Part shown: piece after piece, positions 3,821-63,718 of the stretch
Layout: the number at the start of each line of letters is the position of its first letter
Position numbering within the stretch: position 1 is the first letter of the stretch
Assembly (NCBI RefSeq): GCF_000518545.1
Contig: NZ_KI912452.1
Location: forward strand, 68,729 to 132,728
From: Hallella seregens ATCC 51272
GTDB taxonomy: Bacteria > Bacteroidota > Bacteroidia > Bacteroidales > Bacteroidaceae
Direction: 5' to 3'
Length of the DNA stretch: 64,000 nucleotides
The notes under the pieces: generated by a model
What the model was told of the DNA's origin: nothing
The model's database searches: none
What the model saw: only the letters and a program-made list of their open reading frames with translations
Position numbers and translations under genes: made by a program

Positions 3821-4909
3821 TTAGCGTTTCGCGCGCTTTTCGAGCCAGCAGATGATGGGATAATGGTCGGAAGTTTTGATTTTGTTGTCCACGTGGCAGC
3901 CATAGGGTTTGAAGTGGCTGGAGCAGAAAATATGGTCTATACGCACCAGAAACCCGTTGTAGTGGTAGCTGATTCCTGGGCCGTTGCCCGTGGCTACATA
4001 GCAGTCGGTCAGTCCGTCGGCTATGGTTCGGCGGGCGTAGGAGATGGGGCCGTCGTTGAAGTCGCCGCATACAATCATGGGCAGGTTGCGGTGGAGGTCG
4101 ATGTAGCGCGCCACGGCCTCGGCCTCGGGAGCCCGCGTGGCGGTGGCCTTGCCCAGTTTGTGGATGAGCAGCCTTGAGGTTTGCTCGGCAGTGTCGGCGT
4201 TCAGCGTGCCCTTGAGCAGACTCCTGAAACGGCCTTTTTCCTTGTTGGTCAACCCCGTGGTTTCCAGATGATTGTTGATGACGACCACCGTGTCCCGACC
4301 CATGCGCAACTTGAAAGCCGCACTCAGGTTGCCCTCCGATGCGTAGATGATGTGCTCCTTGCCCACGATGGGGTACTTGCTGAAGATGCTGATGCAGTCG
4401 CCTTTGTCGCGCATGGCCGTGTCGCGGTACTGATAGATGGGGTTGAGCATGGAGTCTATCTGCTGCTGTCCCACTTCGTTGGCTCCCGACTCCTGCAGGC
4501 AAACAATGTCGGCATCCTGATCGCGCAGGTATTCCAGAATGGGGTTGGGGTCCGATTCGCTGTCTTCCCACCCGGCAAAAAGCCACACGTTGTACGATAT
4601 AACCTTGATGGCTCCCTTGGGAGGCTTACGGTTCACGTTGACAGGCGTGTAGCGGCGCACGGGCCCGTAGCACAAGATGAAACCCAAGAATGGAATCCAC
4701 GCCCCCTTGGGCTTGAAGAGAAGCCAGAAGACAAGGAAAGCCGTGTTGAAGAGGAGGAACAGCGGAAACGCCAGTCCGGCATTGCTCAGAGTGGGAAACG
4801 ACACGGGGTTGAGCAGGTCGGAGTGACCCACCATCAGCATGATAAGCACGGTGGCCACGTTGGCGCCGCCCATCATTTGCAGGGTGACCGTCTTGAGTTT
4901 GCGAATCAT
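3821..4909 (-). CDS. Endonuclease/exonuclease/phosphatase family membrane protein
   Basis: The 362-residue product has three predicted membrane segments in its first 100 residues, then an EEP (DNase I-like) fold. The motifs in order are VISYNVW, the metal-binding Glu in VCLQES, NNHLETT, CGDFND with the catalytic Asp and Asn, and the terminal SDHYPI. Family members cleave phosphodiester or phosphate monoester bonds with divalent metal; the substrate here is not evident. A membrane-anchored form with the catalytic domain outside is common in Bacteroidota. Its start codon overlaps the end of the rhomboid gene by four bases (ATGA), so the two genes are translationally coupled. No clear hairpin follows the stop codon. 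Confidence 0.9.
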   Translation of the reverse strand: MIRKLKTVTLQMMGGANVATVLIMLMVGHSDLLNPVSFPTLSNAGLAFPLFLLFNTAFLVFWLLFKPKGAWIPFLGFILCYGPVRRYTPVNVNRKPPKGAIKVISYNVWLFAGWEDSESDPNPILEYLRDQDADIVCLQESGANEVGQQQIDSMLNPIYQYRDTAMRDKGDCISIFSKYPIVGKEHIIYASEGNLSAAFKLRMGRDTVVVINNHLETTGLTNKEKGRFRSLLKGTLNADTAEQTSRLLIHKLGKATATRAPEAEAVARYIDLHRNLPMIVCGDFNDGPISYARRTIADGLTDCYVATGNGPGISYHYNGFLVRIDHIFCSSHFKPYGCHVDNKIKTSDHYPIICWLEKRAKR

Positions 4910-5862
4910 TTCTTGCTCTGGTCAAAGAGCGTTTGTTTCTCCTCGCGGGTCAGACTGTCGTAGCCGCTCTTGCGAATCTTGTCCAAAATGCGGTCGGTCT
5001 CTTCCTGTGTGGCTTTCTTTCGGGAATTGTAGTCCCAGTCGGCATTGCCCGTGGACTGCCTGTGGGCATGGCCGCCGACCGACCGGCGGCTACCCTCGGA
5101 CGTGCTGCCCTTCCTGCGGCCGGCGGCATGCTGCTCCCAACGCGAGCGCAACTGGTCGAAGAAGCCCGTGCCGCCCATGCCCACGCCCTGGCTGCCCGGA
5201 TGCCGTTGCCAGTAGCGGATGAGGAAGAAACCGAAGACCATGCCGCCCAAATGGGCCAGATGGGCCACCTTGCCGCCTGGCATGGCCAGGCCCAGCGTCA
5301 GTTCAACGGCAATGGAACCAATGACCATCCACTTGGCTTTGATGGGGACAGGGATGGGGATGATGAACATTTTCTCGTTGGGAAACATCATTCCAAAGGC
5401 CAGCAGCAGTGCGTAGAGCGCCCCCGAGGCTCCCACGGTGGTGAGGCCGTTGAGCTGTGAAGCCAGCTGGTGCATCACGCTGAAGGCTTCGCCGATACCC
5501 AGTGGTTGCTGGCCGTAGAGCATGTAATACACCCAGCCGAACTGGGCCACCTCTTGCAGAATGCCGGCTCCGACACCGCAGAAGATGTAATAAAAAATAA
5601 ATCTTCTGCTGCCCCAGGTGTGCTCCACCACGGTGCCAAACATCCACAACATGAACATATTGAAGATGAGATGCTCCCATCCGGCGTGCATGAACATGTA
5701 GCTGACGAGCTGGAACACGTGGAAGTCGGAGGCCATGAAGAAGTGTAACCCGAAGAGGTCGTTCAGGTCAACGCTACCTTGCTGTCTGGTGGCCAGTGTG
5801 CCCACAAAGGCCAGAATATTGATGATGAGCAGATTCTTGGTGATGGTTGGAATCCTTGGCAT
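4906..5862 (-). CDS. Rhomboid family intramembrane serine protease
   Basis: This 318-residue protein is a polytopic rhomboid protease, which cuts substrates within the lipid bilayer using a Ser/His dyad. The nucleophile is Ser146 in GASGALYALL, and the general base is His204 in AHLAHLGG. The upstream HxxxN element is at WEHLIFNM (His64, Asn68). Six membrane segments span roughly residues 10-215. The last 90 residues form a basic, Ser/Gly-rich cytoplasmic tail ending in a segment like ILDKIRKSGYDSLTREE, a conserved tail of Bacteroidota rhomboids. It is the first gene of a two-gene operon with the EEP protein. A TATTTTTG box at 5901-5908 (minus strand) is a possible -7 element. Confidence 0.95.
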   Translation of the reverse strand: MPRIPTITKNLLIINILAFVGTLATRQQGSVDLNDLFGLHFFMASDFHVFQLVSYMFMHAGWEHLIFNMFMLWMFGTVVEHTWGSRRFIFYYIFCGVGAGILQEVAQFGWVYYMLYGQQPLGIGEAFSVMHQLASQLNGLTTVGASGALYALLLAFGMMFPNEKMFIIPIPVPIKAKWMVIGSIAVELTLGLAMPGGKVAHLAHLGGMVFGFFLIRYWQRHPGSQGVGMGGTGFFDQLRSRWEQHAAGRRKGSTSEGSRRSVGGHAHRQSTGNADWDYNSRKKATQEETDRILDKIRKSGYDSLTREEKQTLFDQSKK

Positions 5863-5990
5863 GATGTCGAAATTGTGTCGTGAAACGTTTATGATGGGTG
5901 CAAAAATACGAAAAAACTCGGTTAATCAGCTATGAAACAACCGTTTTAGGAGTTTTTTTGATATGTCGCGGCTTTTTTTTCAGCATTTTG

Positions 5991-6021
5991 TTTGGAATCT
6001 AAAAGGAATCCCCTATATTTG
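5991..6021 (+). promoter_or_regulatory. HU gene promoter
   Basis: TTTG at 5991-5994, a spacer of exactly 19 bases and TATATTTG at 6014-6021 match the Bacteroidetes promoter consensus. The predicted start site leaves a leader of about 45 bases before the HU ATG at 6075. Confidence 0.75.
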
Positions 6022-6074
6022 TTGCCAGAAAAGAACGAAGTGTCATGATATTATTCACTTAATACATAGAAGTT

Positions 6075-6350
6075 ATGAACAAAACAGATTTAGTAAAGAA
6101 GATTGCTGACGCTGCAGGTTTGAGCGCGGCCGATGCCAAGAAGGCCCTCGACGCTACAACCGTTGCCATCAAGGATGCACTGGTGGCAGGAGAGAAAGTT
6201 CAGCTCGTAGGTTTCGGCACATTTGCCGTCAAGGAGCGTCCCGCCCGCCAGGGTGTGAATCCCGCTACGGGCGACAAGATTCAGATTGCGGCCAAGAAAG
6301 TGGTGAAGTTTAACCCGGGAGCTGAATTTGAAGAGGCAGTTAACAAATAA
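6075..6350 (+). CDS. HU family DNA-binding protein
   Basis: The 91-residue product is a full-length HU/IHF-type nucleoid protein, which binds and bends DNA as a dimer. It opens MNKTDLVKKIADAAGLS and carries the diagnostic GFGTFAVKERPAR segment followed by the DNA-binding arm GVNPATGDKIQI and the closing KVVKFNPGAEF. Length and motifs agree with the canonical bacterial HU subunit. The gene is single, with its own strong promoter and a perfect terminator directly after the stop codon. Confidence 0.97.
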   Translation: MNKTDLVKKIADAAGLSAADAKKALDATTVAIKDALVAGEKVQLVGFGTFAVKERPARQGVNPATGDKIQIAAKKVVKFNPGAEFEEAVNK

Positions 6351-6370
6351 TGTCAATATAATTACCATAT

Positions 6371-6401
6371 AAAAGGGCCCGTGCGAAGCACGGGCCCTTT
6401 T
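6371..6401. terminator. Bidirectional terminator between HU and the dehydrogenase gene
   Basis: A perfect 14-bp stem (6371-6384 with 6388-6401), loop GAA, is flanked by AAAA on one side and TTTT on the other. It lies 20 bases after the HU stop and 21 bases after the convergent SDR stop, so it can serve both. Confidence 0.9.
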
Positions 6402-6422
6402 ATGTTTCAGCTGTCCGAAACA

Positions 6423-9713: not shown

Positions 9714-11795
9714 ATGACAGAAATGAAACAGATGATTCTCTCGGCCGCCCTGCTTGCGGTGGCCGCCAACGTTTGGGGGCAGCAATCCGACTCGCTGCGC
9801 ATGGACAGTGTGGTGCGTAGTCTGCCAGAGGTGATGGTGCGGGGCGAGCGCCCGGTGGTGCGCGTCGACGGCTCGCGGCTGGTCTACGACATGCCCCGGC
9901 TGGTGGAGAAGCGCGCGGTGGACGATGCCTACGCCGCCCTGCAACTGTTGCCCGGCGTGGCCGAGACGGACGGAAGGCTCACGCTGGGCTCCCAGCCCGT
10001 CACGCTTGTCATCGACGGAAAGGTCTCCACGCTCGATGCCGCGCAGGTGGCTCAACTGCTTCGCGCGCTGCCGGCCAGCCGTGTGGCCCGTGCCGAAGTG
10101 ATGTACACGGCACCGGCCCGCATGCAGGTACGCGGGGCCGTCATCAACGTGGTGCTGCGCCAGGCCGCCGCCGGGGAGCCGCTGCAAGGCGAGGCCAACC
10201 TGGCCTGGAACCAGAAACACGAGGCCCGGTTCGGCGAGCGCGCCACCTTATTATATAGTAACGGCCCGCTGTCGGTCGATGCGATGTACAAGCACAGCCA
10301 TGGCAACGTCTACACGCGCACCGACGAAACGTCGCACCACACGCTGGCCGACGGCTCCGTGCACGACATGGACACCCACCAGCAGATGCGTGGCGACGGC
10401 CCCACCCACGACTACAGGCTGGGCGTGGACTGGCGGCCGGCCGCGGGCCATCTGCTCAGTCTGGTCTACACCGGCCAGTACGACCGGGACCGCACCCGCC
10501 AGACCATCTCGGGCAATGTGGACGGCCGCACGCAGATAGACGGCCACACGTGGCTACACAACCTGCGCACCGACTATGCGGCACCCTTTGGACTGCGGCT
10601 CGGGGCCGACCTCACGTGGTATCGCAACCCCGAGACACAGACCCTCGCCAGCACGCTGCCCACCGGGTCGCTGCGCTATGTGGTGGACAACAGCCAGCGC
10701 ATCTTCCGCTCCAAGTTCTTTCTGTCGCAGGAGCATCGGCTGGGCCGTGGCTGGTCGCTGAACTATGGCGCCATCTATATGGGCAGCAGCAACCGCAGCC
10801 GCCAGCTGTATGCCGAGACGATGCAGACCGCCGGACCCCGCCCCGCCTCGTCGGAAACGCATCAGCAAGAGGACGACCTGAACCTCTATGCGGGCTTCAG
10901 CAAGACCTTCGTCGGGCATCTGTCGATGGAGGCTTCTGCCGCTGCATCTTATTACCATTCGGTGGCCTGGCACCGGTGGAACCTCTTCCCCACACTCACG
11001 CTCACGTGGGCTCCCAAGGCGGGAAACATGGTGCAGCTGGGGTTAAGCTGCGATCGCCGCTACCCGGACTATTGGACTCTCACCAATTTCACCACCTACA
11101 GCAACGGCGGCTACAATGAGGTGACGGGCAATCCGGGCCTCCGACCCACGTCCAAATACCGGTTGCAGCTGGTCGGACTGCTGCATGGCAAGTATCAGTT
11201 GGTGGCTTGGTTCCACCACACCGACGACTATTTCACGCAGACTCCCTACCAGCGTCGCGACCGTCTCACCGTGAGCTATCAGTATCAGAACTTCGACTTC
11301 CAGCAGCAGGCGGGCTTCCAAGCCTCGGCGCCGGTGCGGCCCTGGCGGTGGCTCGACGTGCGGGCCACGCTCATTGGAGTGTGGATGCGCGACAAGAACT
11401 CGGCTTTCTACGACATACCTTTCGACCGCAGGATGGCCTACGTCATGGCGCGACTCAACAACACAGTTACCCTCTCCACGCGGCCGGACATCACGCTTTC
11501 GGCCGATGGCATGATTCGGTCGCGTGCCATCCAGGCCACCTACGACCTGCCGGGATCGGGCACTGTGGATCTCAGCGTGCGGTGGCGGTGGTGGAACAAG
11601 CGGGCGGTGGTGCGACTGTTCTGCACCGATTTGTTCGAGACGGGCGGCATCAATCCGCGCATTGACTACCGCGGGCAGCAGCTGCGCATGGCTTTTGCAC
11701 GATACCGTGAGGTGGGGCTGTCGTTCACCTACCGGTTTGGCGGATATACGGAGAAAAAGCGAGAGGAGGTCGATACCAGCCGGTTTGGACAGTGA
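9714..11795 (+). CDS. TonB-dependent receptor-like outer membrane beta-barrel protein
   Basis: The 693-residue product has a signal peptide (MILSAALLAVAANVWGQ), a plug-like domain at about residues 35-150 (VVRVDGSRLVYDMP, LQLLPGV, VTLVIDGKV) and a long barrel region rich in alternating aromatic and polar residues. It belongs with the outer-membrane beta-barrel family common in Bacteroidota (CirA-like, large barrel after a short plug). There is no N-terminal carboxypeptidase-regulatory repeat and no SusD partner. The ligand is unknown. It is divergent from the sensor kinase gene with 133 bases between the starts, suggesting control by that two-component pair. A TACCTTTG -7 box lies at 9692-9699. 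ATG 9723 is an alternative start. Confidence 0.85.
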   Translation: MTEMKQMILSAALLAVAANVWGQQSDSLRMDSVVRSLPEVMVRGERPVVRVDGSRLVYDMPRLVEKRAVDDAYAALQLLPGVAETDGRLTLGSQPVTLVIDGKVSTLDAAQVAQLLRALPASRVARAEVMYTAPARMQVRGAVINVVLRQAAAGEPLQGEANLAWNQKHEARFGERATLLYSNGPLSVDAMYKHSHGNVYTRTDETSHHTLADGSVHDMDTHQQMRGDGPTHDYRLGVDWRPAAGHLLSLVYTGQYDRDRTRQTISGNVDGRTQIDGHTWLHNLRTDYAAPFGLRLGADLTWYRNPETQTLASTLPTGSLRYVVDNSQRIFRSKFFLSQEHRLGRGWSLNYGAIYMGSSNRSRQLYAETMQTAGPRPASSETHQQEDDLNLYAGFSKTFVGHLSMEASAAASYYHSVAWHRWNLFPTLTLTWAPKAGNMVQLGLSCDRRYPDYWTLTNFTTYSNGGYNEVTGNPGLRPTSKYRLQLVGLLHGKYQLVAWFHHTDDYFTQTPYQRRDRLTVSYQYQNFDFQQQAGFQASAPVRPWRWLDVRATLIGVWMRDKNSAFYDIPFDRRMAYVMARLNNTVTLSTRPDITLSADGMIRSRAIQATYDLPGSGTVDLSVRWRWWNKRAVVRLFCTDLFETGGINPRIDYRGQQLRMAFARYREVGLSFTYRFGGYTEKKREEVDTSRFGQ

Positions 11796-11799
11796 GTGC

Positions 11800-11830
11800 A
11801 ATTCAAAATTCAGAATTCAAAATTCAAAAT
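11800..11830 (+). repeat. 31-nt repeat, copy 1
   Basis: This AT-rich 31-nt sequence, starting AATTCAAAATTCAG, is built from ATTCAAA/ATTCAGA subunits. It starts 4 nt after the stop codon of the barrel gene, in the same orientation. Three further exact copies occur in the window. Confidence 0.85.
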
Positions 11831-11858
11831 TATTCCTGCCATACCGTAAGCATTGCTC

Positions 11859-12060
11859 AATTCAAAATTCAGAATTCAAAATTCAAAATGGGCGACGGGG
11901 GTTAATCTGCCATTCGCCACTCGTCATTACTGGCACTGTTTGTTAGGCTATTATAGGACAAATAGGATGATATAGGAGGTGCTTGTAGGGGCCGGCCTCT
12001 ATGCCGGCCCGCCAATCACCGGCTATGTAGAAACATGTTGTTATGTTGTTCTGTCTAAAA
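11859..12060 (+). repeat. 202-bp intergenic module, copy A
   Basis: The module opens with an exact 31-nt repeat (11859-11889), has a central hairpin (gggccggc at 11989-11996 with gccggccc at 12003-12010) and ends with ctgtctaaaa. By direct comparison it differs from the reverse complement of 37176-37377 at 14 of 202 positions, without gaps. No ORF is conserved between the copies. Confidence 0.85.
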
Positions 12061-12265
12061 TTCACCGCGCGAGCCATGTGTTTTATCTATTGTTCTGTCT
12101 AAAACCCATTGCGCGAGCCATGTGTTTGATTTGTTGTTCTGTCTAAAACCCACCGCGCGAGCTATATGTCCAGTCTGTTGTTCTGTCTAAAAACCCCATG
12201 TTTCAGTCTGAAATACACGGTTGTTTTGTCTAAAAAACTCGCGGTTGCTTCTGTCTAAAAACGGG
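12046..12265 (+). repeat. 44-bp tandem array around CTGTCTAAAA
   Basis: The core ctgtctaaaa starts at 12051, 12095, 12139 and 12183, exactly 44 bases apart, then degenerates (near 12226 and at 12251). The first three units also share most of the sequence cgcgcgagccatgtg. There is no unique-spacer structure, so it is not a CRISPR array. Confidence 0.8.
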
Positions 12266-12324
12266 GATGGCACGATGAAACACCGGGTCTCGCGTTGCGA
12301 AACCGCTTGTTTCATCGTGCCATC
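12266..12324. terminator. Long hairpin between convergent genes
   Basis: A perfect 17-bp stem (12266-12282 with 12308-12324) encloses 25 nt that themselves form a near-palindrome (gtctcgc/gcgaaac). It could end transcripts of either convergent gene, but no T-tract follows on either strand. Confidence 0.5.
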
Positions 12325-30577: not shown

Positions 30578-30718
30578 TGCGCGCAATTTAGTTGATTTAG
30601 CTGCAAAATTACTTAGAAATATCCAAAATTGCGCCACTTTTGAGGCTTTATTATGTAAAATATTGGTTTATAGCGTGTTTTTTAAGGTTGTTTAGAAGTT
30701 TGCCTCAACAAGGCAAAC

Positions 30719-30748
30719 AAAAAAGGCAATACGATCACTCGCACTGCC
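30719..30748 (-). terminator. Terminator of the small hydrophobic peptide gene
   Basis: Read on the minus strand, GGCAGTGCGA pairs with TCGTATTGCC (10 bp including two G-U pairs) around a GTGA tetraloop, and six T follow directly. This is a textbook rho-independent terminator, 17 bases after the peptide stop codon. Confidence 0.85.
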
Positions 30749-30765
30749 TCTTTGTAAGAATAATG

Positions 30766-30861
30766 TTAACGGATGCTGGTATGTACCAAAGCAATAATAC
30801 TAAGAGCGGTCATCAACATGACCAATACCAGCATCACGACTGATTCAAAATCTAATAACAT
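30766..30861 (-). CDS. 31-residue hydrophobic single-span peptide
   Basis: ATG 30861 to TAA 30766 encodes MLLDFESVV followed by the hydrophobic segment MLVLVMLMTALSIIALV and a short polar tail ending HTSIR. The layout (acidic N-terminus, one membrane span, basic C-terminus) is that of small membrane peptides, including type I toxins and small regulators. An internal ATG at 30834 could give a 22-residue form. Support comes from the surroundings: a consensus promoter upstream, a strong terminator downstream and a purine-rich stretch (TTAGGATT) before the ATG. The coding region contains an 11-bp inverted repeat (30772-30782 with 30825-30835) and an inner hairpin (30808-30823). The transcript could instead be a structured RNA. 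Homologs are not known to me. Confidence 0.6.
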   Translation of the reverse strand: MLLDFESVVMLVLVMLMTALSIIALVHTSIR

Positions 30862-30940
30862 AATCCTAATCTTTACCTTAAAAATCTATCAAACTACTAA
30901 CCTAATGAAACTTTATGTGAATCTTCTCACGAAGACTGTG

Positions 30941-30972
30941 CAAAGTTACGTCAAGTTTTTGACGAAACCAAA
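30941..30972 (-). promoter_or_regulatory. Promoter of the small hydrophobic peptide gene
   Basis: TTTG (30969-30972) and TAACTTTG (30941-30948) on the minus strand are 20 bases apart, a consensus Bacteroidetes promoter. It gives a leader of about 70 nt with a small hairpin (GTGA..TCAC) near its 5' end, and a transcript of about 215 nt ending at the terminator near 30719. Confidence 0.75.
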
Positions 30973-31028
30973 TATATTTGCACATTTTTATTATTTTAAG
31001 CAGCCTTTTTGATTTAGGTCAATCTAAA

Positions 31029-31055
31029 AAGCCCGCCTCCATCGGAGGCGGGCTT
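31029..31055 (-). terminator. pckA terminator
   Basis: A perfect 12-bp stem (31029-31040 with 31044-31055), loop of three, is followed on the minus strand by TTTTTAGATT. It lies 30 bases after the pckA stop. Confidence 0.9.
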
Positions 31056-31084
31056 GATGATTTGTGATTCCGTGAATCGGATGC

Positions 31085-61093: not shown

Positions 61094-61645
61094 TTATTTC
61101 TTGTTGCCGAAGTCGGCCGGAATCTCGCCCCACAGCTTGGTTTCCCATTTAATAATAGGTGTGGTGACGGTGTGGGTGCGGAGCCATTGCTCGGCGCGGG
61201 CAATGATTTGGTAGAGCGGTTCGGTCGTGGCATTGCGCTCCAGCTTGGTCTTGCACTGCTTCTTGCGCACCCAGAGGATGGCGTTGTACGAGTCGGAATA
61301 GATCGCCTTGTCGGTGACGCCGCGCCTCTCCAATAGGGCCAACGCATGTACAATGGCCAGAAATTCGCCGATGTTGTTGGTGCCGTGCATGGGCCCGAAG
61401 TGGAACACGCGCTCGCCCGTCTGCAGGTCGACGCACTGGTATTCCATGGGTCCCGGATTGCCGGAACAGGCTGCATCGACGGCCCAGCCCCCGGCACCCC
61501 TCTCCGCCCCCCCTCCAAAGGGAGGGGCTCCGGACGGCCCCGGCACCCCCTTCGTGCCCCCCTTGGCGTGCGGCGGGCATGGGGATGCGCCCTGACCGTC
61601 CCCGGATGCGGTGCGGTTGTTGGGCTGGGGGTATGAGGTTTTCAT
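61094..61645 (-). CDS. RNase H family protein with repeat-derived N-terminal linker
   Basis: The product (183 residues from ATG 61645; ATG 61681 is also possible) is a type 1 RNase H, which cuts the RNA of RNA-DNA hybrids. Acidic residues sit in WAVDAACSGNPGP, NIGEFLAIVHAL, AIYSDSYNAILW and WGEIPADFGNKK. The first 55 residues are Gly/Pro-rich and low-complexity. Their DNA (about 61495-61600) contains the palindrome cccctcc-aaag-ggagggg at 61510-61527, of the kind found in dispersed Bacteroidota intergenic repeats. The enzyme domain thus seems to have gained an in-frame repeat-encoded leader. The gene directly follows argS. Confidence 0.85.
   Translation of the reverse strand: MKTSYPQPNNRTASGDGQGASPCPPHAKGGTKGVPGPSGAPPFGGGAERGAGGWAVDAACSGNPGPMEYQCVDLQTGERVFHFGPMHGTNNIGEFLAIVHALALLERRGVTDKAIYSDSYNAILWVRKKQCKTKLERNATTEPLYQIIARAEQWLRTHTVTTPIIKWETKLWGEIPADFGNKK
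61505..61560. repeat. Palindromic repeat-like sequence inside the RNase H gene
   Basis: Arms 61510-61516 and 61521-61527 pair around aaag, followed by the C/G-rich sequence gacggccccggcacccc. The type is usually intergenic in this phylum. Here it is translated in frame as a Gly/Pro-rich linker. Confidence 0.5.
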
Positions 61646-61681
61646 GTTCTTGCTGATGTCTTTGGTTTGCCGTCGCTGCAT

Positions 61682-63718
61682 TTACATACGTTCGGGCACC
61701 TCGATGCCCAGCAGGTCCATGCCGTTTTTGATGGTCTTGGCCACGTTCTGGGCCAGCACCAGACGCGTGGTTTTCTCCCTGTCGGTGTCGGCGCTCAGGA
61801 TGCTGTAGTCGTGGTAGAACTGGTTGAAGTCCTTCGTTAGCTCGTAGCAGTAGTTGGCAATGCCGGCCGGATTGTAGTTCTCGCCGGCGTCGCGCACGGC
61901 CGTCTTGAACTCGTCCATCTTCTGGATGAGCTTCACCTCCTTGTCGTTGAGCGGTGCGTCAGCGGGTAGGGAGGCGGGGATGGCGATGCCCTCGGCCGCG
62001 GCCTTGCGCATGATGGAGCGGATGCGGGCGTGCGTGTACTGGATGAAAGGCCCCGTGTTGCCGTTGAAGTCGATCGACTCTTCAGGGTTGAAGAGCATGT
62101 TCTTGCGGGCGTCCACCTTGAGAATGAAGTATTTCAGGGCGCCCATGCCCACGATGCGCGCAATGTCCTGCCGCTCGTCCTCGGTCATGTCCTTGAACTT
62201 GCCCAGCTCTTCGCTCATGCGTCGCGCGTCGTCGACCATGGTGGCGATGAGGTCGTCGGCGTCGACTACGGTGCCCTCACGGCTCTTCATCTTGCCGTTG
62301 GGCAGTTCCACCATGCCGTAGGAGAAGTGCACCAAGTCCTTGCCCCACTTGAATCCGAGGCGGTCGAGCAGGATGGAGAGCACCTGGAAGTGGTAGTTCT
62401 GCTCGTTGCCGACCACATAAATCATCTTGTCGATGGGGAAATCGCGGAACCGCAGGTCGGCCGTGCCGATGTCCTGCGTCATGTAAACACTCGTGCCGTC
62501 GGAGCGCAACAGCAGCTTTTGGTCGAGTCCTTCGTCGGTGAGGTCGGCCCACACGCTGTTGTCTTCCTTTCTGAAGAAGAGCCCTTTGGCGAGTCCTTCC
62601 TCCACTTTCTTCTTGCCTTCGAGGTAGGTGTCCGACTCATAATAGATCTTGTCGAAGCCCACGCCCAGTGCCTTGTAGGTCTCGTCGAAGCCGGCGTAGA
62701 CCCAACTGTTCATCTTTTGCCACAGTGCCCGCACCTCGGGGTCGCCCTGTTCCCACTTCACGAGCAGCTGCTGTGCCTTATGTAACAGGCTTCTCGGTAT
62801 TTGTTTCCTTATTCTTTTTTTTATCTCTGTTTGTAAAATGTGAATAGTTTTCTCTTTTTTGCCACTTTTTAGTAAGTCTTTCCACAAATCATAGCTATCT
62901 AACTCATCCATTATTTTTTTCATACCATAGGCATAGTCAACGTCAAACCTATAGTTTTCATCTTTTTTCTTTGCTTTAATAATGGCCCAAATACTTTTCA
63001 ATATCTTTTTATATAGAGTATGACTTAGTTTATACTTATAAATTTCAGGTGTGTAACCTATATTCCAATTTCTACCAAAATGAGCCTCTTGCTTTTTTAA
63101 TTTTTTATCAAAAAGAACGTAGTAGTCGCCGATAAGGTGGTCGCCCTTCTTGCCGGTAGACTCCGGAGTCTCGCCGTTGCCCCATTTGAGCCAGGCCAGC
63201 ATCGACTTGCAGATGTGGATGCCGCGGTCGTTTACGATGTTGGTTTTCACCACGCGGTTGCCGTTGGCCTCCATGATGCGCGCGAGGCTCCAGCCCAAAA
63301 GGTTGTTGCGCACGTGGCCGAGGTGGAGCGGCTTGTTGGTGTTGGGCGATGAATATTCCACCATCACGAGCTTGCTCTCGGGGCCGACGGGCCGCTTGCC
63401 GTAGTCGGCATCGGCATGAATGTCGTTGAGCAGGCCCACCCAGGCCTCGGTGGTGACGACCAGATTGAGGAATCCTTTCACCACGTTGAACGCGGCCACG
63501 GCCGGGCAGTCGCGCTGCAGGGCCTCGCCAATTTCGCGTGCCGTGTCTTCGGGCTTCTTGTGCGAGATTTTCAGAAAGGGGAAAACCACCAGTGTAAGAT
63601 TGCCTTCAAAGGTTGCCTTTGTCTTTTGCAGTTGCACCATGCTCTGGTTCACGTCCTGTCCATAAAGCTCCCGAACGGCCTTGATGACCGCGGAGCCGAT
63701 TTCCTTTTCAATATTCAT
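61682..63718 (-). CDS. argS: Arginyl-tRNA synthetase with large AT-rich insert
   Basis: The 678-residue enzyme charges tRNA-Arg. It has the class I HIGH motif in SSPNTNKPLHLGHVRNN (residues about 132-135), the KMSKS counterpart GKMKSREGTVVDADDL, and the usual DALR-type C-terminal domain ending DLLGIEVPERM. Bacteroidota ArgS proteins are typically about 600 residues. The excess lies between GDYYVLFDK and LLVKWEQGDPE, where about 112 residues (206-317) replace a linker normally near 33. The DNA there is about 28% GC. All catalytic motifs are intact and the frame stays open, so the protein is probably functional. The frame opens at 63760, but the TAACTTTG box at 63758-63765 makes ATG 63718 the start. 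Confidence 0.95.
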   Translation of the reverse strand: MNIEKEIGSAVIKAVRELYGQDVNQSMVQLQKTKATFEGNLTLVVFPFLKISHKKPEDTAREIGEALQRDCPAVAAFNVVKGFLNLVVTTEAWVGLLNDIHADADYGKRPVGPESKLVMVEYSSPNTNKPLHLGHVRNNLLGWSLARIMEANGNRVVKTNIVNDRGIHICKSMLAWLKWGNGETPESTGKKGDHLIGDYYVLFDKKLKKQEAHFGRNWNIGYTPEIYKYKLSHTLYKKILKSIWAIIKAKKKDENYRFDVDYAYGMKKIMDELDSYDLWKDLLKSGKKEKTIHILQTEIKKRIRKQIPRSLLHKAQQLLVKWEQGDPEVRALWQKMNSWVYAGFDETYKALGVGFDKIYYESDTYLEGKKKVEEGLAKGLFFRKEDNSVWADLTDEGLDQKLLLRSDGTSVYMTQDIGTADLRFRDFPIDKMIYVVGNEQNYHFQVLSILLDRLGFKWGKDLVHFSYGMVELPNGKMKSREGTVVDADDLIATMVDDARRMSEELGKFKDMTEDERQDIARIVGMGALKYFILKVDARKNMLFNPEESIDFNGNTGPFIQYTHARIRSIMRKAAAEGIAIPASLPADAPLNDKEVKLIQKMDEFKTAVRDAGENYNPAGIANYCYELTKDFNQFYHDYSILSADTDREKTTRLVLAQNVAKTIKNGMDLLGIEVPERM
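62770..63105 (-). other. AT-rich in-frame insert within argS
   Basis: By hand count 83 of 300 bases at 62821-63120 are G or C, against a visibly GC-rich flank. The encoded segment is Lys-rich (23 of about 112 residues) with aromatic residues, for example YKYKLSHTLYKKILKSIWAI and KKRIRKQIPRS. No known domain, stop codon, terminal repeat or target duplication was recognised. Confidence 0.8.

Follow-up and report, generated by a model that had tools for sequence, protein, structure and literature searches.

Replacement of a hairpin segment of arginyl-tRNA synthetase by an AT-rich module, probably acquired repeatedly within one bacterial genus

The window, which is the whole stretch of 64,000 nucleotides analysed here, carries a gene for arginyl-tRNA synthetase (argS) whose reading frame is uninterrupted from the ATG at 63716-63718 to the stop codon at 61682-61684. 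The N-terminal, catalytic class I and DALR anticodon-binding domains were all found in its product (PF03485, 21.6 bits for a cut-off of 21.5; PF00750, 149.8 bits; PF05746, 111.1 bits), which scores 433.7 bits against TIGR00456 (cut-off 261.65) and is 69-78% identical to ArgS of 28 native-type relatives. A search of the window's own genome (G000, 99.96% complete) with the PF00750 profile returned one argS locus, in the form of two partial matches, one on each side of the module described below. The features of the locus are as follows.

61094..61681, minus strand: RNase H-like gene adjoining argS (PF00075)
61682..63718, minus strand: argS, arginyl-tRNA synthetase, 678 amino acids plus stop; matches TIGR00456 and DALR_1
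62765..63115, minus strand: foreign module, residues 202-318 (117 amino acids, 29% GC), flanked by GDxYV and LVKWE, in place of the native hairpin segment
63077..63109, minus strand: N-terminal junction, residues 204-214 (D/N-K-K-x-K/R-x-Q-E-x-x-F), corresponding to DKHYREExKxL in the majority of native rows
62915..62953, minus strand: motif YRFDVDYAYGMKK, residues 256-268, which reads YRFxxDYxYGMxK in all three family members (alignments A2 and A4)
62765..62794, minus strand: C-terminal junction, residues 309-318 (RS-L/F-L-H/Y-K/Q-A-Q-Q/R-L/M), corresponding to LIKEAHEM in the majority of native rows

In its domains (TIGR00456; PF03485, PF00750 and DALR PF05746), its fold and its usual neighbor gene, this ArgS resembles other bacterial arginyl-tRNA synthetases (ArgRS). 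It differs from them in that a 117-residue module matching no known domain occupies the place where its relatives have 28-45 residues. A homologue of the RNase H-like gene follows argS in four of five other loci, both insert-bearing ones included (74-79% identity by blastp in L044-L047; none seen in L048). Retention of this neighbor in most loci indicates that argS lies at its usual site.

The limits of the module are given by GDYYV, which ends at residue 201, and LVKWE, which starts at residue 319. The block from GDHLIGDYYV to WEQGDPE measures 137 amino acids in the window's ArgS, as compared to 64 (19 genomes), 65 (one genome) or 56 (nine genomes) in all 29 of the same-genus relatives compared first. 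The resulting excess of 72-81 residues agrees with the first-pass annotation of this DNA, which had counted about 80 extra residues. The segment itself spans 117 residues in the window and 36-45 in these relatives; in nine additional loci where the segment is complete, GDxYV and LV.W are separated by 28-44 residues. The base composition of the 351-nt segment (29.3% GC, GC3 0.29) departs sharply from that of the rest of argS (58.9% GC, GC3 0.85). No stretch of equal length among 1795 taken across the 19-kb locus reaches this AT content, the lowest GC among them being 41.6%, and the lowest GC content of any 300-bp interval in the 64-kb window (27.7%; window mean 57.9%, sd 6.4) falls within the segment, close to the value of about 28% originally reported. 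The other five frames of the segment contain 3-16 stop codons each; 117 open codons at this base composition are not expected by chance.

When the insert sequence was used as a query against 398 genomes of the genus, two more genuine members were identified, both within ArgS: one in genome G393 of Prevotella conceptionensis (L034), 49% identical to the window's version over the segment, the other in genome G372 (L035), 38% identical. Identity among family members is 37-49%. The G372 module is 52 residues longer, with an internal sequence after KGTTNQEKAYNI that has no counterpart in the other two. A scan of 84,980 species genomes with the G000 query and strict patterns, by which members such as G372 can be missed, produced 304 stretches and one confirmed locus, in Prevotella conceptionensis 9403948 (L039), where the segment is identical to that of G393. 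The genus name Prevotella, used here for the insert-bearers, derives from the record of this locus and from the kinship listing. Overlapping draws at other taxonomic levels contained two genuine members among 399 genomes of the family (G000 and G372), one among 309 of the genus and one among 395 of the phylum, the last two being the window's own. Six weaker matches (L036, L037, L038, L042, L043 and L073; E 4e-4 to 0.01) fall in or beside unrelated genes and were taken as chance; by eye, these genes are a TOPRIM-like ORF, AAA ATPases, a TonB-type receptor, a tryptophanyl-tRNA synthetase neighborhood and a glycosyltransferase.

The abrupt change of composition at both borders is what an assembly chimera or a contaminant would produce. 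Against this, two other assemblies, one of them with 2 contigs, carry homologous inserts at this site, and in none of the three genomes does either junction break the reading frame. We give scarcely any credence to an artefact, which the first-pass annotation had named as a possible objection.

The distribution of the module was examined with a scan of the 398 genus genomes for the center of ArgS, which gave matches in 365. The insert is known in at least three of these 365, the window's own genome included, a count that, beyond the loci examined, rests on E-values among the matches listed and leaves out G178, G263, G284, G318 and G343, which have a second match and whose best matches have E<=3e-82. 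An insert of ordinary composition shared by most relatives, the finding named at the outset as adverse to a foreign origin, is thus not what these genomes hold, all known versions being AT-rich. Two matches were obtained in 12 of the 365 genomes: three are the insert genomes, and G153, G315, G355 and G369 carry native sequence, their double matches reflecting contig ends, an N gap or a frameshift over it. Among 15 genomes with a single weak match, the whole native segment was read in eight (L050-L057). G060 is native, and G130 has the native segment with a stretch missing after it; in G169, G226 and G281 a contig end falls in or next to the segment, and in G283 and G296 the segment could not be read. 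G014 was classed from contig-end coordinates. In 33 of the 398 genomes the scan found no match for the ArgS center; four were retried, of which three again gave none and G089 proved to have argS broken at contig ends. Contig ends inside argS were noted in G089, G169, G226, G281, G296 and G355 (L063, L065-L069, L074, L075), some of them within or beside the segment, and two G355 contigs overlap inside native sequence at the variable segment. Such ends might be ascribed to chance, to shared conserved k-mers or to strain polymorphism at the site.

Alignment of ArgS with that of its relatives, a check proposed in the first-pass annotation, mapped the borders to GDxYV and LVKWE and revealed that the native segment is missing in the insert-bearers. 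In alignment A3 (30 of 35 listed locus proteins entered; 28 native-type rows), the three insert-bearing proteins differ from most native-type rows at positions 206, 207, 209-211, 214, 312-314, 316 and 317. K206, Q210-E211, F214, L312 and Q316 are common to all three; at 206, 210, 211, 214, 312 and 316 the native-type rows mostly have H, E, V/C/I, L, I/M and H/R, with K206 and Q210 also present in two of the 28. All three share the hallmarks KKxxxQExxF, a W and a G shortly after, YRFxxDYxYGMxK and RSxLxxAQ. The module thus brings its own versions of the hairpin ends, from which it follows that the native hairpin has been replaced. As read from the alignment, the change at argS is a replacement combined with an extension, the native hairpin segment being gone, and not a clean insertion. 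The word "insert" in the first-pass annotation is better replaced by "replacement". A second native form occurs in L053, L056 and L057 (G218, G379 and G264), loci of 40-46% GC, where LFDKKNKEQ is followed by a short loop, for a total of 28-34 residues. LFDKKNKEQ is close to the start of the module, so that the module may derive from an argS of that kind; the resemblance to this rarer native form also weakens, on sequence grounds, the view of the ends as specific to the module.

Foreign composition, an in-frame position and confinement to a single gene are also properties expected of a selfish or mobile DNA element (a palindromic element, MITE, intein or intron). The palindromic elements of Rickettsia are AT-rich in-frame insertions in genes, and the ArgRS module, likewise AT-rich and in-frame, lies inside a conserved gene; unlike them, it is larger, non-palindromic, single-copy and conserved as protein, and it replaces a native segment. 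No inverted repeats were found, RNA folding is unremarkable (z -0.83) and protein comparison detected one copy in the genome, leading us to reject a palindromic element or MITE. Inteins begin with a Cys or Ser nucleophile, end with His-Asn before Cys, Ser or Thr and leave the extein on either side intact. The segment starts with LFDKKLKKQE, ends with HKAQQL and has no Cys in G000, and the native segment is not split by it but replaced, which upholds the initial view that this is not an intein. A selfish element of any of these kinds appears highly improbable. A MITE upstream of P. gingivalis argS, as the excerpted source describes it (PMC4596501), was set aside as unrelated.

The module bears marks of selection on its protein sequence. 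An ungapped alignment of the G000 and G393 segments has 72, 82 and 56 identities out of 117 at codon positions 1, 2 and 3 (position 2 versus 3, p = 0.0008; position 1 versus 3, p = 0.049). For the same pair, the NG86 method gave dN 0.43 and dS 3.8 in the segment and dN 0.17 and dS 1.6 in the body, hence a dN/dS of about 0.11 in both, a rough figure since dS is saturated. Judging from these substitution patterns, the module is under selection as a protein, changes faster than the body and keeps its motif. It could be argued that the exchange was nearly neutral, a recombined variant hairpin being tolerated with no particular function. Native-type relatives already differ in the length of this site (28-45 residues), dN is higher in the module than in the body, the G372 version is longer still (see above), and a tolerated exchange would leave much the same pattern. 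The low dN/dS, the conservation of codon position 2 over position 3, the retention of motif residues at 37-49% identity and the presence of one domain family in three separate lineages all speak against near-neutrality, which we regard as improbable but still one of the main rivals.

In a tree of the ArgS body (40 rows, variable segment removed; IQ-TREE in quick mode, with SH-aLRT as the sole support measure, one row only 16% filled and one gene entered twice), the three insert genomes require at least three changes of state. Forcing them together was rejected (lnL difference 111, p-AU 0.00026). With 37 of the 40 rows native-type, gains can be read as the simpler direction of change than losses. 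The G372 body groups with four native-type rows in a clade of five (SH-aLRT 100) and is 94.0% identical to that of L012, which keeps the native segment. Compared in blocks of 20 codons, G372 and L012 have a nucleotide identity of 0.72-0.92 away from the segment, which falls to 0.42-0.48 in its N-terminal part and is 0.65 in the block over the C-terminal border. In G000, G393 and G372, respectively, the segment has GC contents of 0.29, 0.34 and 0.28 (GC3 0.29, 0.33 and 0.28), whereas the ArgS bodies have 0.59, 0.51 and 0.46 (GC3 0.85, 0.66 and 0.55). Such consistently low GC of the segment, in three hosts whose ArgS bodies differ, suggests a source that is AT-rich and itself diverse. Ancient presence of the module followed by many losses fits this AT-richness poorly. 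We conclude that intragenic recombination has brought the domain-bearing segment into argS of Prevotella, its source not having been found, and hold this anatomy and its repeated horizontal acquisition with high confidence. Horizontal acquisition and retention of an open frame of foreign composition, as initially proposed from the window alone, are borne out by homologous AT-rich versions at one site in three separate genomes. The proposal that the event was recent is supported for G372, given the near identity of its body to that of a native-type relative, and by unadapted codon use in all three genomes; no date can be attached to it.

No source of the module was found among viral contigs (three queries), phages or plasmids. 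Plasmid records with an ArgS match numbered 97; among the 15 listed, the Bacteroidales rows H1-H4 (H3 assessed from the list only) extend over about 1800 nt and are too short to include the insert. The native-type relatives with LFDKKNKEQ (see above) favor an argS donor over an extra-chromosomal pool. Patchy horizontal spread of divergent synthetase versions has a parallel in synthetase homeoalleles, divergent functional versions which, as the part of the source consulted describes them, owe their patchy distribution to horizontal or biased gene transfer (PMC3191353). By comparison with that partial account, only about 350-510 nt inside argS move in the present case and the body follows its own relatives: the divergent phylogeny of a whole gene, typical of homeoalleles, was not seen, as the G372 body clades with native-type rows. 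Synthetases are known to gain domains by insertion, and their genes to be transferred horizontally; neither this module nor any small domain family that replaces one ArgRS segment in separate lineages, with foreign composition each time, was seen in open-licence PMC articles.

A full-length AlphaFold model of the window's ArgS (md2736dcd1338; 31 sequences, mean pLDDT 81.6) has as its best match the tRNA-bound yeast ArgRS (1f7u_A; Z 35.6, rmsd 3.6 Å over 561 residues). In this model the module is bordered by helix 192-217 on one side and helix 311-323 on the other, and separates the first Rossmann half from the second, a position corresponding to the connective region of class I synthetases. 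The structure prediction suggested in the first-pass annotation thus locates the module, with residues 211-310 themselves modelled at low pLDDT (31-71 by blocks of ten). Modelled by itself (three sequences; pLDDT 78.7, pTM 0.67), the module is predicted to be all-helical, with five helices; two of the five models were near pLDDT 78 and the others at 48-61. Searches with the module against Pfam, NCBIfam, PADLOC and PDB sequences gave nothing under E 0.05, and a Foldseek search with its fold alone against PDB and BFVD gave nothing at E<=0.001; in a second comparison with 35 chains, the best Z was 6.2. Faint matches to phrog_6318 (E 0.007, without assigned function, matching one of the three members), Mre11_C_bact (Pfam, E 0.75) and LMP (E 0.09) were not accepted as evidence of homology.

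The connective region of class I synthetases is close to the tRNA acceptor end. A domain added there might bind tRNA or a partner, improve or regulate aminoacylation and spread for its housekeeping advantage. The excess of 29 Lys/Arg over 14 Asp/Glu among the 117 residues, the predicted helices and connective-region position, and the aromatic and basic motif YRFxxDYxYGMxK common to all members would suit such a role. ArgRS, in the portion of the literature consulted, activates arginine only with tRNA bound (PMC9976931), so that tRNA contacts matter at every step of its reaction. Yet AT-richness by itself favors Lys, and the module is rare and patchy (at least 3 of 365 genomes) and missing from the closest sampled relatives of G372; a general advantage should have spread more widely. 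We judge a tRNA- or partner-binding role unlikely, though still a serious contender. The predicted position of the module also recalls the CP1 insertions of IleRS, ValRS and LeuRS, which carry editing domains between the Rossmann halves. It is conceivable on this basis that the module is an add-on for fidelity or editing, for instance against arginine analogues such as canavanine. Unlike CP1, the ArgRS module has no editing-domain match in Pfam, NCBIfam or PDB, occurs in three genomes of one genus and is foreign in composition; it spans some 113-117 residues and is predicted to be all-helical. In favor of such a role, canavanyl-tRNA-Arg is, in the excerpted report, deacylated by a standalone protein (PMC10018355). 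An editing function appears very unlikely.

One argS locus was found in each of G372 and G393, as in G000, which means that the altered enzyme must still charge tRNA-Arg; aminoacylation of tRNA-Arg by the window's ArgS is likewise inferred from its being the sole argS found in a nearly complete genome. Together with the essential nature of the target, the in-place swap, the divergent alleles, the foreign composition, the patchy spread, the use of one site and the purifying selection fit resistance by target modification. In the explanation that we favor, the hairpin segment between the class I catalytic halves has been exchanged for a larger, Lys-rich domain that is predicted to be all-helical. 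The three changes would be gains by recombination through conserved argS flanks, with other argS alleles carrying the domain as probable donors. The domain would alter the ArgRS surface such that tRNA-Arg is still charged and binding or exploitation by an antagonist is lost. The antagonist could be a small molecule, a toxin released by a competitor or a factor encoded by a phage. We advance this combination of swapped segment, repeated gain and escape from an antagonist tentatively, its chances being somewhat short of even. Taken separately, a protective function of the module, by which it would shield or retune ArgRS against an antagonist, is suggested by analogy and is the likeliest of the functions considered, although its odds are below even. 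No toxin, antagonist or defense gene was recognised next to argS by eye in the three insert loci, viewed as ORF starts only.

The analogy comes from a leucyl-tRNA synthetase, AgnB2. AgnB2 is encoded by a second gene beside the normal LeuRS gene, and self-immunity synthetases are extra resistant copies. In the available part of the source, AgnB2 of Agrobacterium radiobacter K84 has a domain replaced by a miniloop, resists a synthetase-directed antibiotic and is expressed by the antibiotic producer (PMC5059758). What it shares with the ArgRS module, as far as this partial account goes, is a structurally altered synthetase, and the mode of action proposed for the module is an analogy. In ArgRS, by contrast, a segment of the sole gene is swapped in place, no extra argS copy was found in the three genomes and no inhibitor is known. 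The same excerpt states that most mutations in the salt bridge of the AgnB2 miniloop left resistance unchanged, with one exception ascribed to a loss of stability (PMC5059758); the parallel with the ArgRS module is thus only partial.

More broadly, it seems conceivable, if doubtful, that the module is a fast-diverging, horizontally exchanged immunity module of Prevotella, whose cells would swap in AT-rich helical domains from a pool when ArgRS comes under attack. If so, an arms race would be taking place within a single-copy essential enzyme of translation. Swaps at one site in three lineages, from an unseen AT-rich source, suggest a selective agent acting on Prevotella ArgRS. If that agent is a natural ArgRS antagonist, the module would mark its site of action and provide a handle for finding it; if the module tunes tRNA binding instead, it would represent a new, transferable domain of class I synthetases.

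Some further features of these loci were recorded. Of six further AT-rich dips in the window, the two that were inspected (30638-31084 and 5863-6074) lie mostly in intergenic DNA, one of them next to a PEP carboxykinase-like gene and the other upstream of an HU-like gene (names assigned by eye). At 61440-61610, GC-rich DNA encodes a Gly/Pro-rich stretch of the RNase H-like gene, within which lies the palindrome-like CCCTCCAAAGGGAGGGG (61511-61527); this stretch of 171 bases is single-copy in the genome and was not seen in the genes of L044 and L047. In G372 (L045), the argS-RNase H pair is situated between two inverted IS copies with a DDE_Tnp_1 transposase (about 4299-6418 and 10194-12311), 97% identical over 2121 nt, in a layout resembling that of a composite transposon.
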